From assembly GCF_001999965.1 (NCBI RefSeq), contig NZ_CP019646.1, positions 930,001-994,000 of the forward strand: a stretch of 64,000 bases of DNA, read 5' to 3'. The notes under the pieces were generated by a model, which was not told the origin of the DNA, did no database searches, and saw only the letters and a program-made list of their open reading frames with translations. This document shows positions 1,915 to 26,515 of the stretch, one piece after another (position 1 is the stretch's first letter; each line of letters opens with the position of its first letter). The position numbers and the translations under genes are program-made. Source of the DNA: Limihaloglobus sulfuriphilus (GTDB lineage: Bacteria > Planctomycetota > Phycisphaerae > Sedimentisphaerales > Sedimentisphaeraceae).

Positions 1915-3678
1915 ATGCAGGAAAACAAATTTATTAAAGATGCTCTTGATGAGTTTTTCATTGATCGGAAATTCGGAGTATTCATACATTGGGGTCTCTA
2001 TTCTGTCCTCGCCGGCAGGTGGCAGGGCAAAACAACTCCTTATATTGCCGAATGGATAATGAAACGTGAGAGAATTCCCGTCAAGGAATACGAGAAGATA
2101 GCTTCGCAATTCAACCCTGGTAATTTTGACGCCGATGAGTGGGTTGAGAACATAGCCCGCAGCGGGGCACGCTATATGGTTGTAACCGCAAAGCATCACG
2201 AGGGTTTTGCGATGTACCATTCAAAAGTCAGCCCGTTTAACGTGGTTGATGCTACAGAGTTCGGCAGGGATATAATCGGGGAGCTCTCTATCGCGGCGAA
2301 AAAATACGGGATTAAATTCTGCCTGTATTATTCTCATGACCAGGACTGGCATCACCCGCACGGCTTTGGCAACGATTGGGATTACCGTCCTCAAGACCAG
2401 GATTTCGATGTTTATTTTAATGAAATGGTTTTGCCTCAGGTACGTGAGCTTTTGACAGGTTACGGTTCAATAGGCATGATATGGTTCGATACCCCTTTCA
2501 GTATCGATAAGGCTAAAAGCCGCAGGCTCTGTGATTTTGTCCATGAACTCCAGCCGGCGTGTCTCGTAAACGGCCGTATCGGACATGATCTCGGTGATTT
2601 TTCAGAGATAAGCGATAACGGTGTGCCTTCAACAGTTGTGGAGCAGGCATGGGAAACTCCCCTGACAATGAACGATTCGTGGGGGTACAAGGTTGACGAT
2701 AATAACTGGAAGAAGCCGCAGACACTTGTGCGGTACCTCTCTGGGATCGTCGGCAAAGGCGGTAACTGCCTGCTTAATATAGGGCCCGACGGAGACGGCA
2801 ATATTCCCGAACAAAGCGTTGAGATTCTCGATTCTATCGGATCCTGGCTGAGGATAAACGGTGATGCGGTTTACGGCACGCATCACAATCCGTTTCCTGT
2901 TGATTATCAGTGGGGAACACTGACCAGCCGGAACAACAAACTGTTCCTCCATGTTCACAGGGCAAACGGCGGCAAAATAATCCTCAAGGGTCTCAAAAAC
3001 TCCGTTTTGTCCGTTGCCTACAAAAATCGTGAGCTCTTTTTCTCACAAGCTCAAGACAGCTCGGGAACACTGGAGATTGAAACGCCGCAAGACTTTGATC
3101 TTGAATATCCGGCTGTAATCAGGGTAGAGGTTGACGGTAAGGTCGAAGTTGACCGCTCAATAACCCAGCAAGGGGATAATTCTGTTGTTCTTGAAGCCGG
3201 AATTGCCGTTGCATCGGGATCAGATTCCCAGATAAGTATCAGCCATCTTGGAACTACAAACAACTGGTTTGACACAAATGAGAGTCTGTGCTGGAGCTTT
3301 CGGGTTGACAATCCCGGCCGTTTTCATATTAATATTGTTACAATTGGCGAAAGGGCAGACGGTGACCCGGCAACTCCGCTTGAGTGGGAGGGCGGCCACA
3401 AAATAACCGTAGCCGTAGCTGATAAATCGTTAACCGGAATTATAACTAAAGACAGCGAAATGGAGAATCCTGTCAACTCGCATTTTCCTCTGTATATAAC
3501 AGAGATTGGCGAGATTGATTTGAATGAACCCGGTGAGTATGAAATGCGAATACGAGCCAAGAGCATTGTAAACGAAAAAGAAATTGGATTCACCTTGCGT
3601 TCAGTAATTTTAAACCCAATAAAAACAGAAGCATATGAATATGAACAGGCCGAATGTAATTCTTGTCTTAACCGATGA
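1915..3678 (+). CDS. GH29 alpha-L-fucosidase
   Basis: A 587-residue glycoside hydrolase family 29 protein that removes alpha-linked L-fucose with retention. The N-terminal half shows the family hallmarks: KFGVFIHWGLYS near residue 19, AKHHEGFAMYHS near 92, and GMIWFDTPFS, where Asp192 is the expected nucleophile. GKGGNCLLNIGPDGDG is the usual end of the barrel, and the remaining residues form C-terminal beta domains. No signal peptide is visible, so the enzyme is probably cytoplasmic unless the start is wrong. It sits between two sulfatases and overlaps the second by 44 bases, an arrangement that fits processing of sulfated fucose oligosaccharides. The general acid/base cannot be placed with confidence, which is normal for this family. 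Confidence 0.94.
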   Translation: MQENKFIKDALDEFFIDRKFGVFIHWGLYSVLAGRWQGKTTPYIAEWIMKRERIPVKEYEKIASQFNPGNFDADEWVENIARSGARYMVVTAKHHEGFAMYHSKVSPFNVVDATEFGRDIIGELSIAAKKYGIKFCLYYSHDQDWHHPHGFGNDWDYRPQDQDFDVYFNEMVLPQVRELLTGYGSIGMIWFDTPFSIDKAKSRRLCDFVHELQPACLVNGRIGHDLGDFSEISDNGVPSTVVEQAWETPLTMNDSWGYKVDDNNWKKPQTLVRYLSGIVGKGGNCLLNIGPDGDGNIPEQSVEILDSIGSWLRINGDAVYGTHHNPFPVDYQWGTLTSRNNKLFLHVHRANGGKIILKGLKNSVLSVAYKNRELFFSQAQDSSGTLEIETPQDFDLEYPAVIRVEVDGKVEVDRSITQQGDNSVVLEAGIAVASGSDSQISISHLGTTNNWFDTNESLCWSFRVDNPGRFHINIVTIGERADGDPATPLEWEGGHKITVAVADKSLTGIITKDSEMENPVNSHFPLYITEIGEIDLNEPGEYEMRIRAKSIVNEKEIGFTLRSVILNPIKTEAYEYEQAECNSCLNR

Positions 3679-16361: not shown

Positions 16362-17378
16362 TTATTGTGCTATACTTTGGGAGATAACTGCCACGTCTGC
16401 GACTGTGACAGAACCGTCGTTGTTGATATCCCTTCCCTGGCACCAGCCGTTTTCGGGGCTGCATTCGGTTTCAAGCCAAAAGTTGGCAATCGCCGCAAGG
16501 TCCATGGAATTGACCAGGCTGTCACCGTTGATATCGCCTTTTGTGCCTCCAAAAACCAGGCTTGGGGGGATTATAGCAAGGGTTTCTTCAATCCACCCTG
16601 AGTAATAGCTTATCCTGTGGGCGTATGCCCTGTCAGGCTGGTCTCTGAGGGTGTCGGGATTTTTGAACCACGCCTGAGAATAGCTTGCGGATTTAGTTGA
16701 TACACCATAGGTTAAACCAGCAAGTTTCCATTGGCCTTCATGATATATGAACCACCCGCCTCCGGAGTCATATTCAGCCGCAGTGCCTTCGTACTGGGCC
16801 GCTGATGAATGACCGGGGCCGTCAAAGTCCAGCATCATGAAAGAGTCTCCCATTAGCGAGTCTATGTAATTTTGTGCCCAGCGAAGATTTGTGTTTCCCT
16901 CCGGGGCCCAGTTGTAGCCGTAGAGTTTGTTTTTGTTGTAAAGCCCTTCGCCGCGGCCTTTTCCGTACCCGCCGAGAACTATCTGCTTGCTTACTTCGGA
17001 GTCAGTCTCAACGTCCTCGGCTGTATATACTCCCGCGTAATTTGTGAAATTGGCGTTATTAAGAGAGCATATTCGAATGTCTGAGCCGACAGGGGGCACG
17101 TAAACGTCTTTGACTGTATAACTCTTGCCGTTTATGACTACCGGAGATGTCGCGGCGGCGTTGTAGCCGTTTTGGTGACAGGTCGTGATAACGACGTTGG
17201 GGCCGATAACTACGCATGAGGCGTTAGTTCCCCATCGCCCCATACACTCATTGGCAGGGTGGTCGCTCCAGTCGGCAGGGGGAGTTGTTTCAGAATGAGA
17301 TATTATCGCTGATGTTTCTACATTGATGTAAAGCAGGACAAATACGGCAACTAATGCGCACTTTGCAAAAGCTTTCAT
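16362..17378 (-). CDS. Secreted trypsin-like protein with dockerin module
   Basis: A 338-residue exported protein. After a signal peptide (about residues 1-23) comes a chymotrypsin-fold domain: VVIGPNVVITTCHQNG gives His68 as the catalytic histidine, SDIRICSLNN gives Asp100, and AEYDSGGGWFIYHEGQWKLAG gives Ser205. The histidine motif (TTCHQN instead of TAAHC) and the DSGGG serine loop depart from trypsin but keep the triad order. The tail has two calcium loops, DINGDSLVNSMD with NFWL, and DINNDGSVTVAD, forming a paired dockerin-like module. It is monocistronic, with a long leader on the minus strand. Protease activity is likely but unproven. Confidence 0.78.
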   Translation of the reverse strand: MKAFAKCALVAVFVLLYINVETSAIISHSETTPPADWSDHPANECMGRWGTNASCVVIGPNVVITTCHQNGYNAAATSPVVINGKSYTVKDVYVPPVGSDIRICSLNNANFTNYAGVYTAEDVETDSEVSKQIVLGGYGKGRGEGLYNKNKLYGYNWAPEGNTNLRWAQNYIDSLMGDSFMMLDFDGPGHSSAAQYEGTAAEYDSGGGWFIYHEGQWKLAGLTYGVSTKSASYSQAWFKNPDTLRDQPDRAYAHRISYYSGWIEETLAIIPPSLVFGGTKGDINGDSLVNSMDLAAIANFWLETECSPENGWCQGRDINNDGSVTVADVAVISQSIAQ

Positions 17379-17990
17379 GTTCCTTAAACCTTACTAATTA
17401 AACCACAAATTAAGTACCTGCACAATCAAGGCAGAGAAAGACGTGCATCAGTAGAATGACTAAAATATCAAATGCCGTATTCCCAGGAGCGCTGACCCAT
17501 GTAAAATGCGCTTTTAAACCTGGGCGAAATCAATGGTGTGTATAGTCAATTGACAGCTATTAACTGTCGTGCTGCTTGCCATTTCGTGCTCTAAAATTGT
17601 GCCCTAAACAAAGTCTGGAAACTCCAGACAACCAGGAATTATTCTATTGTTTCAAATATCGAGTTGCAAGTAAAATTTTAAAAAATCTGAAAAATTATAT
17701 TTTAACCCGATTGTTGCGATCTCTAAGTCTATTAGAATAATGACTTTGGATTCTTGAAATATTTTACGTTTTTTTGAGGGATTGTTGTATTTTTTTGTGA
17801 AGATTTATGAATTTAGTTAACTGTTTCTGGTTTTTTAAGGTGTTCGAAGTGAGCGGCTTTTAAAACGTACTTAAGTTTATTGTCTTAATAAACCGCTGAA
17901 AGTCTCGCATGGATAGCCCAAAAATACTTTTTAAGTTTAGAGGCTTTGATCAACTGAAAAATATTCTGACTAAATGAAGCGAAAATCAGG

Positions 17991-18018
17991 TTGTCAATAT
18001 TGTGTAAATATATATAAT
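17991..18018 (+). promoter_or_regulatory. Probable glyS promoter
   Basis: TTGTCA, 16-base spacer, TATAAT: a near-consensus vegetative promoter about 100 bases before glyS. Confidence 0.6.
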
Positions 18019-18043
18019 TCTTAATTTTAGTCAGAATATAATT

Positions 18044-18085
18044 ACTCCCGTCCTTTTGCGGTCAGACTTGCAGCCGCACGGGAGT
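18044..18085 (+). promoter_or_regulatory. Leader hairpin upstream of glyS
   Basis: ACTCCCGT pairs with ACGGGAGT, and inside it GCGG pairs with CCGC. It lies 30 bases before the glyS start with no U tract after it, so it is a leader structure and not a terminator. No T-box core is visible. Confidence 0.4.
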
Positions 18086-18115
18086 GCAATGCAGATGTAA
18101 AATTAAGGTTTAACA

Positions 18116-19579
18116 ATGGCAAAATTAACAAAACTTGACGATATCGTGTCTTTATGCAAACGGCGGGGATTTATTTTCCAGTCCAGTGAAATTTATGGAG
18201 GCCTGGCAAGCTGTTACGATTACGGCCCGCTGGGGTGTGAACTCAAACGTAATGTACGCCAGGCATGGTGGAAAGCCATGGTTCAGATGCGTGATGATGT
18301 TGTTGGGCTGGACAGCTCCATTCTTATGCATCCGCTTATCTGGAAAGCCTCGGGACATGCGGATCATTTCAGTGACTTGATTGTAGAATGCAAAAAGTGC
18401 CATACACGCACAAGAGTTGACCATCTCACAGACAAAGACGGTCGCACTGCTGAAGAGAGCGGCGGTGAACCGGCAGATACAAAAGACAAGGTTTGTCCCA
18501 ATTGCGGTACAGTGGGTAATTTCACCGAGCCGATGGCGTTTAAGCTCATGTTCGAGACTGAGATGGGTGCTAATGCCGACGACCGGATGACGCTTTACAT
18601 GCGGCCGGAGACGGCTCAGGGCATTTTTGCCAATTTCCGTAACGTTCTGGATACTACCCGTGTTAAGGTTCCTTTTGGTATAGCCCAGATCGGCAAGAGT
18701 TTTCGAAATGAAGTAACAACCAAGGCTTTTATCTTCCGTACACGGGAATTTGAGCAGGGAGAGATAGAGTTTTTCTGCGAGCCGGGAACAGATGACCAGT
18801 GGTATGAGCACTGGAAGCAGCAGCGTTTTGACTGGTATGTAAGCCTTGGCATAAACCCGGATAACCTGCGTATGAGAGATCATGCCCAAGACGAGCTGGC
18901 GCACTACGCAAAGGGCTGTGTCGATATTGAGTACAGATTCCCCTTTGGTTCGGGCGACTGGCAGGAGCTTGAGGGAATAGCAAATCGGACTGATTATGAT
19001 CTTCGCCAGCATCAGCGAGGAATGCGGTCTATAAATGACTGGATTGAAGCCGGGCGAGATCTTACCAAAATAGAGCTTAAAGAAGAATCGCAGGATTATC
19101 ACAAAGGTCCGCTGTCATATTTTGATGAGCAGCAGAAAAAACGCTATATCCCTTATGTTATAGAGCCAAGTGCCGGCATAGACCGCAGCACCCTTGCTTT
19201 TCTTGTCGATGCTTACGATGAAGAAGAGCTTGAGGGCGGCCCGAGGAATCTGCTGCGTTTCCATCCCGACCTGGCACCGGTTAAGGCGGCGGTTTTCCCG
19301 CTGGTTAAGCGCGACGGCATGCCGGATATCGCCAGAAATATCTGTGACGGCTTGAAAAAACATTTTGCCGCTTTTTATGATGAAAAAGGCGCAATAGGGC
19401 GCAGATACCGCAGACAGGACGAGGCAGGCACACCGTTCTGCATCACGGTTGACGGCCAGATTAAAGAAGATAACTGCGTAACCGTAAGGCACCGTGACAC
19501 CATGGTTCAGGAACGGGTGAATGTCGATCAGGTACTGAATTACCTCCGTGACGGCATGGATAACTGGATGGATAAGTAA
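18116..19579 (+). CDS. glyS: Glycyl-tRNA synthetase, dimeric type
   Basis: A 487-residue class II synthetase of the alpha2 type that is found in archaea, eukaryotes and some bacteria, and not the bacterial alpha2beta2 form. It begins MAKLTKLDDIVSLCKRRGF, has YDYGPLGCELKRN, an insertion with two zinc-like CxxC pairs (CKKCHT, CPNCGT), motif 2 around FRNEVTTKAFIFRTREFEQGE, and motif 3 around EPSAGIDRSTLAFL. The C-terminal anticodon domain ends with TVRHRDTMVQERV. A promoter and leader hairpin lie upstream. Confidence 0.96.
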   Translation: MAKLTKLDDIVSLCKRRGFIFQSSEIYGGLASCYDYGPLGCELKRNVRQAWWKAMVQMRDDVVGLDSSILMHPLIWKASGHADHFSDLIVECKKCHTRTRVDHLTDKDGRTAEESGGEPADTKDKVCPNCGTVGNFTEPMAFKLMFETEMGANADDRMTLYMRPETAQGIFANFRNVLDTTRVKVPFGIAQIGKSFRNEVTTKAFIFRTREFEQGEIEFFCEPGTDDQWYEHWKQQRFDWYVSLGINPDNLRMRDHAQDELAHYAKGCVDIEYRFPFGSGDWQELEGIANRTDYDLRQHQRGMRSINDWIEAGRDLTKIELKEESQDYHKGPLSYFDEQQKKRYIPYVIEPSAGIDRSTLAFLVDAYDEEELEGGPRNLLRFHPDLAPVKAAVFPLVKRDGMPDIARNICDGLKKHFAAFYDEKGAIGRRYRRQDEAGTPFCITVDGQIKEDNCVTVRHRDTMVQERVNVDQVLNYLRDGMDNWMDK

Positions 19580-19648: not shown

Positions 19649-20107
19649 ATGATAATCGACGATGTTCAAAATTCAGGGTTTTACAAAGGGATATCACCTT
19701 TAATAGATGAGGCTCTTGACCTGCTCGCAGCGGAAGACTTTCTTTCCAAACCTGACGGTGAGTATTCGGTTCAGGGCCGCGAGCTCTTTTATATAGTCCA
19801 GCGATACCCAACCAAACCGGTATCGGAGGGCTTTTTCGAAACCCACAAAAAATACATAGATATCCAGCTTGTCGTTTCGGGCTCTGAAATGATCGGTTAT
19901 GCAAACCGCAAAGACCTTGCAGTAAAAGATGCTTACGACGAATCACGTGATCTGGAGTTCTACGAAAGGCCCGAAACATTTACACCGGTAAACTTCAGCC
20001 GCGGCACCTTCGGCATATTCTGGCCGCAGGATGGGCACATGCCGGGAAGGTCCGACAAAGAAAAATCCGATGTCTGTAAAGTAGTTTTCAAGGTAAGATA
20101 CGAATAA
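19649..20107 (+). CDS. YhcH/YjgK/YiaL family protein
   Basis: A 152-residue member of the YhcH/EbgC cupin-like family, linked in other bacteria to metabolism of sialic acid or other sugars; its precise reaction is not agreed. Family blocks seen are FETHKKYIDIQLVVSGSEMIGYA and FGIFWPQDGHMPG, with conserved His and acidic residues in the barrel. It is the last gene with the usual local codon use before the AT-rich restriction-modification island, which starts 8 bases after it. Confidence 0.88.
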   Translation: MIIDDVQNSGFYKGISPLIDEALDLLAAEDFLSKPDGEYSVQGRELFYIVQRYPTKPVSEGFFETHKKYIDIQLVVSGSEMIGYANRKDLAVKDAYDESRDLEFYERPETFTPVNFSRGTFGIFWPQDGHMPGRSDKEKSDVCKVVFKVRYE

Positions 20108-20114
20108 TAGAATA

Positions 20115-21044
20115 ATGACTATTGAGGTTAAACAAAACTATATAAAGTCACCGCTAAATTACATTGGTGGTAAATATAGGCTGTTGGGGCAGATACTGCC
20201 TTTATTTCCTCAAAAAATCAAAACTTTCTTTGATCTTTTTGCTGGAGGCTGTAACGTTGGAATTAACACTGATGCCGCTAGTTTATGTTTTAATGACAAT
20301 CTTACGTACCTTGTTGATATGTATAAAGCTTTTCTTGAGAAGGGAATGTACCGGACGCTTGATCATGTCGAAAAAAGGATTTTTGAATTTGACTTGTCTA
20401 AAACCAATAGAGATGGATATTTAAAATTGCGTAAATTATACAATATTAAAAGAGACCCTTTAGATTTATTTGTTCTAATTGCGTATTCTTTTAATCACCA
20501 GATCAGGTTTAACAATTTACATGATTTCAATAATCCATTTGGTACAAATAAGAGCAGTTTTAATAATAATATGAGAAATAACCTTATTTCTTTTATTAGC
20601 AGGCTTGAAGCCTGCGATGTTTATTTCTCAGACAAGCGGTTTCAAGATTTTGATTTCACTCAAATCACTGAAGATGATTTTGTTTACTGCGACCCTCCAT
20701 ACTTAATAACAACAGGAACTTACAACGATGGCAGGAGGGGATTTGGCGGTTGGAGCGATACAGACGAATATCAGCTTTTGGCCGTCTTAGACAATTTACA
20801 TAAAAAGAGCGTTCGTTTTGCCCTCTCAAATGTACTGTTACATAAGGGTAAATTTAATTACATCCTGAATGATTGGCTGGATAAAAATCCAGCATTTTGT
20901 GTGAATCATATTAACTACAATTACTCCAATTCTAATTACCAGACGTTAGTCAGGGATGTGAGTGCTACTAAGGAGGTTCTGATAACTAACTATAAGCCAG
21001 ACATTCGTTCTGAAAAAGATCTTTTCAGTTGTTTAGAGTATTGA
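20115..21044 (+). CDS. DNA adenine methyltransferase, D12 class (first of two)
   Basis: A 309-residue N6-adenine DNA methyltransferase of the Dam/D12 class. SPLNYIGGKYRLLGQIL at the N-terminus and DLFAGGCNVGIN form the S-adenosylmethionine site, and VYCDPPYL is the catalytic DPPY motif near residue 195. Codon use is much richer in A and T than in the flanking genes. It is followed 2 bases later by a second methyltransferase and then a FokI-type endonuclease, so it is one of the protective methylases of a type IIS system. Two methylases are expected because the recognition site of such enzymes is asymmetric and each strand needs its own mark. Confidence 0.92.
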   Translation: MTIEVKQNYIKSPLNYIGGKYRLLGQILPLFPQKIKTFFDLFAGGCNVGINTDAASLCFNDNLTYLVDMYKAFLEKGMYRTLDHVEKRIFEFDLSKTNRDGYLKLRKLYNIKRDPLDLFVLIAYSFNHQIRFNNLHDFNNPFGTNKSSFNNNMRNNLISFISRLEACDVYFSDKRFQDFDFTQITEDDFVYCDPPYLITTGTYNDGRRGFGGWSDTDEYQLLAVLDNLHKKSVRFALSNVLLHKGKFNYILNDWLDKNPAFCVNHINYNYSNSNYQTLVRDVSATKEVLITNYKPDIRSEKDLFSCLEY

Positions 21045-21046
21045 CT

Positions 21047-22108
21047 ATGAGATTTATTGGAAATAAAGAAAATCTTGTAGAAACAATTTATTCAGTTATA
21101 TCTGATAAAAAGATCAGTGGAGATTCTTTTTTTGATGCCTGTGCAGGTACTGTGAGTGTGGCCAGGTATTTCAAGAATAAAGACTACAGAGTCGTAACTT
21201 CTGATTTGTTATATTTTTCATATGTCCTTCAAAGGGCATATATTGTTAATAATTCAGAACTGTCATTTAGTAAGTTATTAAATACTATTGAGAGCAAAAA
21301 ACAGAGTCTTTTTTCTTCTCCTTTAGAAATGGTAGTTAACTATCTGAATCACATAAAACCGATTAAAGGGTTTGTTTCCGTGAATTATACTCCGGGCGGA
21401 ACAGATCATTTGGATATCCCGCGGATGTATTACAGTGATTATAATGGAAAAAAAATAGATGCTATTAGAATTAAGATAGAATATTGGAAAGCAGAAGATT
21501 TAATAAATGAAGATGAATATTATGTACTGTTGGCCTGTCTTATAGAAACAGTTCCTTTTTATGCCAACATCACAGGAGTTTATGCAGCATTTTGTAAAAA
21601 GTGGGATCCGAGGGCTTTGAAAAAGATTATTCTTAGGCCAATTGGTTTAGTGTTGAATCATCGCAATAACGAATCATATAATCAAGACTCGGCAAGCCTA
21701 TTAGAACATATCGATACAGACATTCTATATATAGACCCACCTTATAACCAAAGGCAATATGCTCCAAATTATCATATTTTAGAAACAATTGCCAGATATG
21801 ATCAGCCGAATATAAGAGGGGTTAGTGGTATGCGGAATTATAGACATCAGAAGTCGCGATTCTGCAATAAAAACACAGCTTTAAACGAGTTGGCATATTA
21901 TGCTAAAAAGGGCAATTTTAAAACTTTAATATTGAGTTACAACAGTGAGGGAATTATGCCTGAAAAGGACATCTTATCTGTCCTTTCTGATTTTGGAAAT
22001 GTCGAATTGCTTGAATTTGATTATTTGAGATATAAAAGCAATAATGGGAAAAGTAATCGAAATAAGAAATATGTCAAAGAGCAACTATACATATTGAGGA
22101 AAACATGA
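21047..22108 (+). CDS. DNA adenine methyltransferase, D12 class (second of two)
   Basis: A 353-residue adenine methyltransferase. It begins MRFIGNKENLVETI, a start typical of D12-class enzymes in type IIS systems, then DSFFDACAGTVSVARYF for cofactor binding, and LYIDPPYNQRQYAPNYH with the DPPY motif near residue 230. I chose ATG 21047 because it begins this conserved block and lies 2 bases after the preceding stop. It overlaps the endonuclease start by 4 bases. In FokI systems the two methylase domains are fused in one protein; here they are separate polypeptides of 309 and 353 residues. The strand each one modifies cannot be told from sequence alone. Confidence 0.92.
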   Translation: MRFIGNKENLVETIYSVISDKKISGDSFFDACAGTVSVARYFKNKDYRVVTSDLLYFSYVLQRAYIVNNSELSFSKLLNTIESKKQSLFSSPLEMVVNYLNHIKPIKGFVSVNYTPGGTDHLDIPRMYYSDYNGKKIDAIRIKIEYWKAEDLINEDEYYVLLACLIETVPFYANITGVYAAFCKKWDPRALKKIILRPIGLVLNHRNNESYNQDSASLLEHIDTDILYIDPPYNQRQYAPNYHILETIARYDQPNIRGVSGMRNYRHQKSRFCNKNTALNELAYYAKKGNFKTLILSYNSEGIMPEKDILSVLSDFGNVELLEFDYLRYKSNNGKSNRNKKYVKEQLYILRKT

Positions 22109-23412
22109 GACCACGTGGTTGGATACAGGACAGCGGTAGTTTTGAAAATTTGATAAAAGTTGTTGAACTTTTTGATAAGAATTCCACTACAAATAAATTA
22201 TTGACTAACAAGTTTATCCGTGACAAGGTTTTGAATTTGGATTGTCAGGAATATTTAGTTAAATCTTTGTTAAATGAAGATGGTTATAAGAATAACCCTT
22301 TAATTGAATATAAAGCATTGGTTGGTTCAAGGACAAATAAGGAGGAAGTTGACGGTTTAATTCAGGTTCTAATACCAGGGCAAAGCAGGCTTGGTATTGT
22401 TGATTGGGCTTGTGATAACTTTATACGACTTGCTTATACTTTTAATTATCTCCAGTATAGTGAGAAAAATGATAGTTTTAGCATAACTGAAGTTGGATTA
22501 AAGTTAGCTAATGCAAATAATCTTGAAGAAAAATTTGAAATCATAAAACATTCTTTACTCTCATATCCACCAGTAACAAGAATTTTAGAGCTGCTAAATG
22601 TCCAGTATCAAAATTCTCAAGAACCATCATTAACTAAGTATGAAATTGGTAGAGAGTTAGGTTTTAAGGGTGAAGCCGGCTTTACATCATATTCCCAGAA
22701 AACAGTTGTGCATGCATTGTCCTGTGCCGAGTCAAACCCAGAAAGAACAAAAATCAAAAATAATTGGGAGGGCTCGAGCGATAAATACGCAAGAATGATA
22801 TCTAAGTGGTTATGTCACAATCAAGTTGGCTGGGTACAAACTGCTCGTAAAAAAATCACGGTACAAATAGGCGAGAAGAAATTTACAAGCCAGCTTAAAT
22901 CTTATCAGATAACTTTAGAGGGCATAAAGATTTTTAAACTAAGCAGAGCTCATAGTAGGCATCCCGGTGTTGAAAAGTCTGTGGGTTTTGAAATGCTGTC
23001 CACAAAAGAGAATGCTAGGAACTTCTTAAGGCTAAGGCGAGCTTATATTTTAACTTCGATAAAAAACACAAAGAATCTTGCGCAAATTCAAGATTATCTG
23101 AAAGCAAACAGCATGAACGCTGTCTCCTGTGAGACCATCAAAGACGATTTAGATAATTTTGCCAGAATTGGCTTGGATATTGCTTTTTCCAACAATAAAT
23201 ACAAAATAAGAGATAAAATTATTAATTTAGAAATCCCTCAGGATTTCACAGAAGAAGATTCTCAACCAGATTATATTGAACGAAGCAAAGATATGCTAAG
23301 AAAGTACTTAGAGAAACTTGATCACGGCTATCTTGATATGCTTGACTTGGGAGCCAGTGGTAGGAAAAAATCACGGTTATTTGAAACTCGGATAGTTGAT
23401 TTATTAAAAGCG
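22105..23412 (+). pseudogene. FokI-like type IIS restriction endonuclease, N-terminal part (interrupted by IS30 element)
   Basis: Codons 1-436 of a FokI-type endonuclease. It begins MRPRGWIQDSGSFENLIKVV, aligning with the FokI start (GWVQNPGKFENLKRVV), and contains the almost invariant NNWEGSSDKYARMI at residues 219-231, plus SYPPVTRILELL and GFKGEAGFTS, all in the three-part DNA-recognition region. The frame runs on for seven residues into the inserted element and stops at 23436, giving a 443-residue protein with no nuclease domain. It could at most bind DNA. The cleavage domain continues in the same frame at 24527. The gene overlaps the upstream methylase by 4 bases, so the operon was methylase-methylase-endonuclease. 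Confidence 0.9.
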
Positions 23413-24524
23413 GATTCAACTCATAAGTGCAATTAAGTCGCCAAAATTGTGGTGAGCTGGTATACTCTCTCACTGAATTATGGTGACCTCAACGAAAGGA
23501 ACACTTATGAGAGCGTACAAGCAGCTCACCGAAGACGATCGTATCGAAATATATGCCATGAAGCAAGCAGGAAATCAACAAAAACAAATAGCTGCGGCGT
23601 TGGGCGTTTCTCCCAGCACGATCAGCAGGGAACTGGCCCGCAATACAGGTCTGCGGGGCTATCGCCCTAAGCAGGCCCAGCAAAAGGCTTTATATCGACG
23701 GATGGCCGCCCGTAAAGCAGTCAAAATGAAGCCGGAGACGATAGAATACATTGAATCCCGCCTCCGGCAGCAACATTCGCCGGAGCAGATCGCAAAACGC
23801 ATGAAAACCGATCCCCACTGGCAGGGGCCGGCCGTCAGTCATGAGCGGATTTACCAGCACATTTGGCAGGATAAAGCCCGGGGAGAAACCCTGTATACCC
23901 ATCTGCGGATTGCCGGGACCAAACAAAGAAGAAAACGAAGAAACAGCCGGGACCGGCGTGGAACGATCAAAAACAGGGTTGGTATCGAAAAACGCCCACC
24001 GGTTGTAGAGAGAAAAAACCGCATCGGGGACTGGGAAGGCGACACCGTCGTGGGGAAAAACCATCAGGGAGCCCTGGTAACCCTGGTTGACCGCAAAAGC
24101 AAGCTGACGCTGATCGGTAAGGTAGATCGTTATACCGCCGAAGCGGTTGAACGGACCATTATCGCCCTGATCGGCACGCTGCCCCGACGAACCTATACAC
24201 TGACAGTGGACAATGGCAAAGAATTTTCAAACCATGAATCTATTGCCCATAACCTTAAAATTAAGGTCTTCTTTGCCGATCCCTACAGTGCATGGCAGCG
24301 GGGCTTGAATGAGAATACCAATGGCTTGATCCGTCAGTATGTACCAAAAGGAAGTGACATCCGAATGCTGACCAATCAGAAGATTGAGCACATAATGAAT
24401 CGACTGAATAATCGACCCAGAAAATCTCTTGGATTTTTAACCCCAAATGAAGTATTCTATAAGAGGAAAAAACTAACAGGATAACAAAACAGGATTTAAC
24501 TTAATTGCACTTGGGAGTTGAATC
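23413..24524 (+). mobile_element. IS30-family insertion sequence, 1112 bp, inside the FokI-like gene
   Basis: Terminal inverted repeats of 26 bp with two mismatches lie at 23413-23438 and 24499-24524 (both start gattcaactc when read inward). The dinucleotide CG flanks both ends (23411-23412 and 24525-24526), a 2-bp target duplication as expected for IS30. Joining base 23412 to 24527 gives ...LLKARNEIVIAKHL... in one frame, which matches the FokI linker-to-nuclease junction and so fixes the ends. The transposase gene is intact. Confidence 0.92.
23507..24484 (+). CDS. IS30-family transposase
   Basis: A 325-residue DDE transposase. The N-terminal helix-turn-helix is QIAAALGVSPSTISRELARN; the catalytic acids are in IGDWEGDTVVG, LTVDNGKEFSNH and GLNENTNGLIRQYVP. 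RPRKSLGFLTPNEVF closes the protein as in other family members. I chose ATG 23507 (MRAYKQLTEDDR), which has AAAGGA upstream and the usual family start. Base composition is more GC-rich than the surrounding restriction genes, so the element arrived separately from the island. Confidence 0.95.
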   Translation: MRAYKQLTEDDRIEIYAMKQAGNQQKQIAAALGVSPSTISRELARNTGLRGYRPKQAQQKALYRRMAARKAVKMKPETIEYIESRLRQQHSPEQIAKRMKTDPHWQGPAVSHERIYQHIWQDKARGETLYTHLRIAGTKQRRKRRNSRDRRGTIKNRVGIEKRPPVVERKNRIGDWEGDTVVGKNHQGALVTLVDRKSKLTLIGKVDRYTAEAVERTIIALIGTLPRRTYTLTVDNGKEFSNHESIAHNLKIKVFFADPYSAWQRGLNENTNGLIRQYVPKGSDIRMLTNQKIEHIMNRLNNRPRKSLGFLTPNEVFYKRKKLTG

Positions 24525-24526
24525 CG

Positions 24527-24958
24527 CGAAATGAGATTGTTATTGCCAAACATTTGTCAGGCGGTAACCGTCCAGAGATTGTATGTTATCATCCTGAAGA
24601 TAAACCAGACCATGGATTGATATTAGACAGCAAAGCATATAAGTCGGGATTTACTATCCCTTCTGGCGAACGTGACAAAATGGTGAGATATATTGAAGAA
24701 TACATAACTAAAAATCAATTGCAAAACCCTAACGAATGGTGGAAAAATTTAAAAGGAGCCGAGTATCCTGGAATAGTAGGATTTGGTTTTATTTCGAATA
24801 GCTTCCTTGGACACTACCGTAAACAGTTAGACTATATTATGAGGCGTACGAAGATAAAAGGTAGCTCGATTACTACAGAACATTTATTAAAAACCGTAGA
24901 AGATGTTCTGTCAGAAAAGGGTAACGTTATTGACTTTTTTAAATATTTTTTAGAATAG
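24527..24958 (+). pseudogene. FokI-like endonuclease, C-terminal cleavage domain (separated by IS30)
   Basis: Codons 437-579 of the rebuilt gene. The segment HLSGGNRPEIV, then HGLILDSKAYKSGF, corresponds to the FokI catalytic core. Numbered in the rebuilt protein, Glu453, Asp470 and Lys472 fall three positions after FokI Asp450, Asp467 and Lys469. Asp486 and Arg490 match FokI Asp483 and Arg487, which form the cleavage-domain dimer interface. NPNEWWKNL is also shared. Without the N-terminal part there is no proper start; a TTG at 24518 in the IS end is in frame but badly placed for a ribosome site. The first acid is Glu where FokI has Asp. Confidence 0.9.
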
Positions 24959-25003
24959 TTCTATTATTGACAATTAGTTAGTCTTAAATAAGGCAAAATC
25001 TTA

Positions 25004-26515
25004 ATGGCACAATATTATACAAGCAAGATAAATCAGCTTGCCGGGCACAACGGCGAAGAGGTCACAATAGCCGGCTGGCTGCAAAAGAGCCGAAGCGGCG
25101 GAAAAGTCTTATTCTTAGTGATTCGCGACGGCAGCGGATTCTGTCAGTGCATCGTTGAAAAGGCCATGGTCAGTGGTGAGCTTTTTTCTGAACTGAAACA
25201 CCTTGGGCAGGAATCTTCTCTCTGTATTACCGGCCAGGTACGCAAAGACGAGAGAAGCGTTGGAGGCTATGAGATCTTAGTCTCTGAGGCAAAGGTTTTT
25301 TGTGATACCAAAGATTACCCCATAACGCCTAAGCCGCATGGCGTTGAGTTTCTTATGGCCAACCGGCACCTGCATTTAAGGTCGCAGAGGCAGTGGGCAC
25401 TGAACCGTGTCCGCCATACTGTCATCGCCGCAATACGTGATTTTTTCAACACGAATGACTTTATCCTTATTGATACGCCGATTTTTACTACCGCTGCCGG
25501 TGAGGGCGAGCAGAATCTGTTCAATGTCGATTATTTCGGCGAAACAGCCTGTCTCTCTCAGACGGGACAGCTTTATCTTGAGTGCGGGGCATTGAGCCAC
25601 GGCAGGGTTTACTGTTTTGGTCCGACTTTTCGGGCAGAAAAGAGTAAAACCCGCCGCCATCTAACAGAGTTCTGGATGGTTGAGCCGGAAGTTGCCTTTA
25701 TCACGCTTGATGAGCTTATGGAGCTTGCCGAGGATTTCGTTTGCTCAATCATAAAGGCTGTGCTTGAGAATAATATTTCCGATCTTGAACTTCTGGGCTC
25801 AGATATTGAATCATTGCGGAAAATAAAAAAGCCTTTCTACAGGCTTACATATTCTGAAGCTGTAGATATTCTGACCGGCCCCAAAGCGGCTAAATATCTT
25901 GAAGATGAACTAATCTCTCTTAGTTCTTCACTTGAAGATGCGGAGAACAAGCTGGCAGAACTTACAGAAACTCAGTCCCAGGCGAAGAAGCAATGGCAAA
26001 AGGATAAAGCCGCGGCAGAGATAATAGAGATTAACTCTGCGATAGCAGAGCTCAAACGCAGGATTGAGAACAATCCCAAACATGCCAGACTTGCAGCCGG
26101 ATTTCAATGGGGCAAGGATCTTGGCGGCTCAGACGAGACAATCATCTCCATGATGCATGACCGGCCGGTTTTTGTAACGCATTACCCCAAAGACGTAAAG
26201 GCGTTTTACATGAAATCAAACGAATCAGACGCAGGTGTGGTGGACAACTTCGATATGCTCGCTCCGGCAGGTTTTGGCGAGATAATAGGCGGTTCGATGA
26301 GAGAAGACAGCTATGAGATGCTGCTTGAGAGGATCAATGAGAAGGGATATAACCCCCAGGACTATTCGTGGTATCTTGATCTGCGTAAGTACGGCTCTGT
26401 CCCTCACGGCGGCTTTGGCCTGGGCGTAGAGCGTACAATAGCATGGCTTACCGGAGAAAAGCATATTCGCCAGTGTATAGCATTTCCGCGTCTGATGGAT
26501 AAAATAGAGATATGA
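25004..26515 (+). CDS. asnS: Asparaginyl-tRNA synthetase with coiled-coil insertion
   Basis: A 503-residue class IIb synthetase. The OB-fold anticodon domain (about 1-110) starts TIAGWLQKSRSGGKVLFLVIRDG; the catalytic domain has TPIFTTAAGEGEQNLF, FGPTFRAEKSKTRRHLTEFWMVEPE (motif 2) and GGFGLGVERTIAWL (motif 3). Bacterial AsnRS are usually about 465 residues. The excess is a charged, heptad-like segment at about 291-365 (YLEDELISLSSSLEDAENKL and KRRIENN), inserted between motifs 2 and 3. It is the first host-like gene after the restriction island. Confidence 0.95.
   Translation: MAQYYTSKINQLAGHNGEEVTIAGWLQKSRSGGKVLFLVIRDGSGFCQCIVEKAMVSGELFSELKHLGQESSLCITGQVRKDERSVGGYEILVSEAKVFCDTKDYPITPKPHGVEFLMANRHLHLRSQRQWALNRVRHTVIAAIRDFFNTNDFILIDTPIFTTAAGEGEQNLFNVDYFGETACLSQTGQLYLECGALSHGRVYCFGPTFRAEKSKTRRHLTEFWMVEPEVAFITLDELMELAEDFVCSIIKAVLENNISDLELLGSDIESLRKIKKPFYRLTYSEAVDILTGPKAAKYLEDELISLSSSLEDAENKLAELTETQSQAKKQWQKDKAAAEIIEINSAIAELKRRIENNPKHARLAAGFQWGKDLGGSDETIISMMHDRPVFVTHYPKDVKAFYMKSNESDAGVVDNFDMLAPAGFGEIIGGSMREDSYEMLLERINEKGYNPQDYSWYLDLRKYGSVPHGGFGLGVERTIAWLTGEKHIRQCIAFPRLMDKIEI

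Follow-up and report, generated by a model that had tools for sequence, protein, structure and literature searches.

What remains of a restriction-modification system when a mobile element lands in its endonuclease gene? We address this question with a 64,000-base stretch of the Limihaloglobus sulfuriphilus genome (hereafter the window), which spans positions 930001-994000 of the single 3,868,357-base contig NZ_CP019646.1 of a genome that is 99.97% complete. There, a gene for a homologue of the type IIS restriction endonuclease FokI, here called R, follows two open adenine methyltransferase genes, M1 and M2, and is interrupted by an insertion sequence (IS) of the IS30 family. The locus is the remnant of a type IIS restriction-modification system that no longer works, since its endonuclease gene is split. 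We consider it very probable that the M1-M2-R operon was acquired, that a 1120-base-pair (bp) IS30 insertion inactivated R and left modification without restriction, and that R belongs to a subclade with glutamate at the first catalytic position. The initial annotation of the window, made from the sequence alone, recognized the split endonuclease gene but mentioned neither the two methyltransferase genes, both open, nor the fact that the cassette as a whole is inserted between yhcH and asnS.

An endonuclease gene of the FokI family in two parts

Judged from its sequence, R is a full-length FokI-family type IIS endonuclease gene that has been split. The first part (22105-23408, forward strand; 434 codons plus two bases) encodes domains D1-D3 together with the beginning of the cleavage domain (Pfam FokI_D1, FokI_dom_2, FokI_D3 and FokI_cleav_dom), and the three recognition domains (PF02981, PF02980 and PF16902) all score above their cut-offs, bearing out the FokI-like N-terminal blocks described earlier. 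Its frame runs into the IS for nine codons and stops at 23436, giving an open reading frame (ORF) at 22105-23436 of 443 residues. The second part (24532-24958, forward strand) encodes the catalytic core with E450, D467, K469, D483 and R487 in the 576-codon numbering explained below, ends with the stop at 24958, and matches FokI_cleav_dom with an E-value of 4e-28; the ORF as listed covers 24518-24958 (146 residues). The cleavage domain PF09254 exceeds its cut-off in both pieces, with its start in the first and its remainder in the second, and the insertion point separates every catalytic residue from the recognition domains.

Searches against the FokI chains of the PDB gave the same picture. 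The first piece aligns with residues 6-431 of FokI (E 2e-64), and the second with residues 437-550 of 1fok_A, which are 440-553 of 2fok_A (E 9e-21). The joined protein thus aligns with FokI across residues 440-470, the region singled out at the outset as the place to look, and the claim of a full-length homologue holds: 576 codons, all FokI domains, and matches to FokI from both pieces.

Extent of the insertion and the reconstructed frame

Where exactly does the mobile element begin and end? The initial annotation was right that an IS30 element splits R, and its transposase matches the IS30 model, but the extent it gave, 1112 bp plus one CG, is too small. We searched the genome with that 1112-bp core as query and found 11 matching places, namely ten full copies and one 52-bp end. 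AGCG precedes and CGCG trails the core in all ten full copies, and a perfect 3-bp duplication lies outside the AGCG...CGCG ends of each (AAA, AAA, CTT, TAT, TCA, TTC, AAT, AAA, TAT and AAA for L001-L010). Because ends and duplications agree in 10/10 full copies, the element is 1120 bp long and occupies 23409-24528 on the forward strand, flanked by the target duplications AAA at 23406-23408 and AAA at 24529-24531. If these ends are true, matches to positions 1-1119 are expected in other genomes, and elements at four places, spread over three further genomes from the order, do match it over positions 1-1119 (75-79%).

The likeness to the IS30 family lies in the transposase, the inverted repeats and the short target duplication, all present in the window element. 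The transposase ORF (23480-24484, forward strand; 334 residues as listed, with ATG 23507 as a possible alternative start) contains HTH_38 and rve domains (Pfam) and scores 312 bits against a cut-off of 80 on the NCBIfam IS30 model NF033563. The arms of the near-terminal inverted repeat, 23410-23438 and 24499-24527, are 93% complementary. ISApl1, of the same family, differs in having a 2-bp duplication in place of the 3 bp found here, according to PMC5821093, which also mentions 1- and 3-bp spacers.

Removing the element and one AAA joins base 23408 to base 24532 and restores 576 codons with no inner stop. This frame carries E450, D467, S468, K469, D483 and R487 at an offset of 0 from the FokI numbering (the FokI numbers D450, D467 and K469 were read from the alignment to 2fok_A), and it aligns gap-free with the three nearest relatives over residues 400-500. 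The junction first proposed, 23412 to 24527, is rejected. It does preserve the frame, giving 579 codons, but the restoration is not exact: it is nine bases too long, it assigns to the gene the AGCG...CGCG sequence that belongs to the element in 10/10 copies, and it inserts K-A-R codons absent from the three nearest relatives in our 82-row alignment. The constant offset of three from FokI reported with that junction is an artefact of these spurious codons, arising because the join was nine bases too long.

The insertion is probably recent, as had been suggested, because eight of the ten full copies, the window's among them, score as an exact copy of the query and no further stop interrupts the joined frame. 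Of the other two, one has a slightly lower score, and the second, at 99% identity, is longer by 9 bp. Another copy, near 3.545 Mb of the same genome (L001 825-2940), also lies inside a gene, one with a DUF3644 match in its first part.

Glutamate at the first catalytic position

Scanning named genomes yielded 146 confirmed relatives, of which 80 were kept. The 82-row alignment and the tree exclude matched ORFs shorter than 500 residues (L020, L021, L039, L044, L063 and the own-genome pieces in L008, L012, L013 and L015). The nearest relatives, L022, L023 and L024, come from metagenome-assembled genomes (MAGs) labelled Flavobacteriia, Bacteroidales and Flavobacterium, and the corrected R is identical to them at 302/574, 301/566 and 270/508 positions, respectively (about 53%). 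A quick tree unites them with window R in one group (support 100); since the branch leading to window R is long (0.66) and was flagged, we use only this four-member group, deeper placement being unsure. All three relatives share Glu450 and the gap-free junction with window R, but their genes lack the IS and their phylum label is Bacteroidota, unlike that of the window. L022 and L023 come with upstream DNA and have the operon order M1-M2-R, as in the window, whereas the L024 contig begins inside the R gene. The initial annotation had proposed to look for an uninterrupted copy in related genomes; none was found within the order, where R occurs in one of 161 genomes, its own.

Window R resembles FokI (type IIS, GGATG 9/13; PDB 1fok and 2fok) in having the same domains, 576 codons against the 579 residues of 2fok_A, and D467, K469, D483 and R487 at identical numbers. 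It differs in its interruption, in Glu for Asp450 and Asp for Asn13, and in standing beside two separate methyltransferases in the order M1-M2, which in FokI are one fused protein according to a review (PMC4081073). The fold of the near relative L022 is predicted to be alike. Its AlphaFold model (mean pLDDT 88.5, pTM 0.89) matches FokI with Z 40.0 over 551 aligned residues at 35% identity, with Foldseek TM-scores of 0.87-0.91; structure matches ranking below FokI were left unused. In this model, the residues at the insertion point lie at the end of helix 420-435, ahead of strand 440-443.

The carboxylate-carboxylate-lysine site, in register with FokI 450/467/469, is E450, D467 and K469 in window R. 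The initial annotation overlooked that the first residue is Glu and not the Asp450 of FokI. While the equivalents of D467 and K469 are conserved in 81/81 relatives, the first position is Glu in window R, L022, L023 and L024 and Asp in the other 78 of the 81. Window R thus lacks the Asp that is usual at this place, a feature that we treat as non-defining. Could the enzyme have been dead or weakened through this Asp-to-Glu change before the element arrived, so that the IS merely marks a disused gene? The near-constancy of Asp would fit such a history, as would the finding that FokI D450A is catalysis-deficient (PMC4081073). However, Asp to Glu is a conservative change, and the three nearest relatives combine Glu with open frames (that of L024 as far as its truncated contig reaches) and with the other catalytic residues, while L022 and L023 retain the M1-M2-R operon. 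We therefore regard death before the insertion as unlikely. Because the three nearest relatives are uninterrupted and L022 and L023 keep the operon, Glu450 looks like a clade trait rather than decay.

The recognition domains suggest that this clade may also read a different site. The place of FokI Asn13, a base-contact position (PMC4081073), is Asp in window R, L022 and L023, and because of this GGATG should not be assumed as the window R site. The 81 relatives divide here into 30 with E, 27 with D, 22 with N and 2 with a gap. Of four further FokI residues that we take to be base contacts, the W105, K225 and R228 equivalents are invariant, and at the E220 position 72 relatives have E and the remaining 9 have D. 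This variation hints at several specificities among the relatives. We give even chances to the proposal that window R and its three nearest relatives represent a subclade of natural FokI enzymes in which the Glu450/Asp467/Lys469 site works and recognition is possibly non-GGATG. If it is true, a natural change of the first catalytic residue would probe how strict the requirement at position 450 is, in a domain that serves as the nuclease of zinc-finger nucleases and of transcription activator-like effector nucleases (PMC4081073). The Glu450 clade is the one new feature here, and mildly so; the rest is the common case of a gene inactivated by an IS, within a system of a known type. Among the papers listed on FokI-type enzymes, IS disruption and orphan methyltransferases, we came across neither this locus nor a Glu450 variant, subscription papers being mostly outside our reach.

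The cassette and its setting

The M1-M2-R cassette occupies the interval between yhcH, which ends at 20107, and asnS, which starts at 25004, and R is the last gene of the operon (window ORFs and Pfam). M1 (20115-21044, forward strand; 309 residues) encodes a D12-class adenine methyltransferase by its match to PF02086 (E 5.7e-34) and a TIGR00571 score above the cut-off. M2 (21047-22108, forward strand; 353 residues) encodes a second one (PF02086, E 1e-37), and the DPPY motif is intact in both. We take the M2 start at ATG 21047, where the ORF list has TTG 21029; the M2 stop and the start of R at 22105 overlap as ATGA. Type IIS enzymes are usually paired with two methyltransferases, separate or joined as in FokI (PMC4081073), and by gene content the two separate open D12 genes would provide for modification of both strands. 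At the two ends of the cassette lies a 10-base inverted match, AATAATAGAA (window 20103-20112) and TTCTATTATT (24959-24968), which may be due to chance.

How did a FokI-type system come to be in this genome? Such systems are rare in the lineage. The scarcity of R in the order is matched by that of its domains: PF02980 occurs in one of the 392 genomes of a phylum sample, its own, and PF09254 in two of the 397 of a class sample, the second being a distant 601-residue frame in G535. Phage records gave no match and viral contigs no confirmed one; 13 plasmid records hold relatives, of which six were examined. In two genomes of the same family, G637 and G681, the glyS-asnS gap measures 462 and 456 bases and is filled by a yhcH homologue (36% identical), so that glyS, yhcH and asnS are contiguous without the cassette. 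With the IS left aside, the cassette has a GC content of 33-36%, against 47-50% in the flanking synthetase genes. The simplest reading of these data is that the cassette was gained horizontally.

Proposed history and alternatives

We propose that a FokI-type type IIS operon, M1-M2-R, was acquired between yhcH and asnS, and that R would have remained an open 576-codon frame until it received an IS30-family element behind base 23408, with duplication of 3 bp. The insertion point falls in the stretch that separates the first strand of the catalytic core from the last helix ahead of it. M1 and M2 would share the methylation of an asymmetric site, one strand each, and R, while intact, would have cleaved next to unmethylated sites until the insertion ended cutting. 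No cutting is expected now because the recognition domains and the catalytic residues lie in separate frames. Because R comes last in the operon, the insertion should leave M1 and M2 untouched, and the cell would for that reason be safe from its own enzyme. Most likely, then, the locus now provides modification without restriction. If so, the locus is a clear case of a FokI-type system that lost cutting and kept its methylase genes, the last gene of the operon having been hit.

Several points weigh against this history. The functions of M1 and M2 and the death of R are inferred from the genes, and past activity of a Glu450 enzyme is a supposition. No allele of the same species without the insertion was found, and, as noted above, an uninterrupted R is not found elsewhere among the 161 genomes of the order. 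Two further members of the family, G303 and G325, have best asnS matches of only 26-27% and no yhcH beside glyS, and are uninformative about the empty locus. GC content is also low, 39-40%, at 17000-18499, outside the cassette. Transfer of the cassette is likewise inferred.

Is the loss of R permanent? The perfect 3-bp duplication and the open joined frame mean that precise loss of the element would restore R, and the element could act as a reversible switch, with restriction returning in part of the population (phase variation). However, IS30-family transposition is described as copy-out-paste-in, which leaves the donor copy in place (PMC5821093), and exact excision across a 3-bp repeat should seldom occur. 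We consider such a switch very unlikely. Equally improbable, in our judgement, is that the 443-residue first piece is retained as a DNA-binding protein in an independent role, such as regulating the operon. It does contain all three recognition domains, and truncated FokI-like frames occur elsewhere: on the Staphylococcus plasmid L020 (NZ_CP035293.1) one ends at about 309 residues beside an IS257 transposase (1544-2470 and 2512-3186), and eight Staphylococcus plasmid records, one of which was examined, match query residues 1-300 only. But the insertion looks young, the stop of the first piece lies in IS sequence, and a role for the product would be conjecture. That the split is an assembly error is barely credible: ten full IS copies can be misplaced by assemblers, but the genome is one contig of near-full completeness and the 3-bp duplication is perfect here and at nine other sites.

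Methyltransferase arrangement in related loci

How common is the gene order seen here? We surveyed 86 loci with an R match, own genome excluded. M2 and M1 are fused in the order M2-M1 in 36 loci and separate in the same order in 18. M1 stands ahead of M2 in only three, L022, L023 and L101, and in L101 both methylase genes are set apart from R, some 2.3 kb behind it on the opposite strand, M1 first. Six loci have only one methyltransferase and 23 have none, seven of the 23 having short flanks. M1 of the window shares 62% identity with its counterpart in L022 and with that in L023; for M2 the values are 63% (L022) and 61% (L023). The Planctomycetia MAG L070 has M1 and M2 relatives of 58% and 55% identity, with an R that is far more distant (194/552).

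Sixteen R genes, mostly from Lacrimispora and its kin, have no M1 or M2 relative within about 5 kb on either side (L048, L050, L063, L071, L073, L075, L077, L078, L080, L082-L085, L087, L088 and L092). An adjacent D12 pair was found elsewhere in all ten genomes searched from this set, about 1.5 Mb away on the closed chromosome of L063, and R and its likely methylases seem to be unlinked there. The Staphylococcus gene on L020 is a further FokI-like gene without a cleavage domain. The R frame is in two overlapping pieces in L039, L044 and L063, through frameshifts that may be real or sequencing errors. The Poribacteria MAG L031 (4042-4992) has a D12 relative of M2 only, and a 316-residue frame between M2 and R is a putative methyltransferase of another type, with a DPPYG motif read by eye. 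Only M2 is seen in L037 and L058, and in L055 R is placed between M2 and M1.

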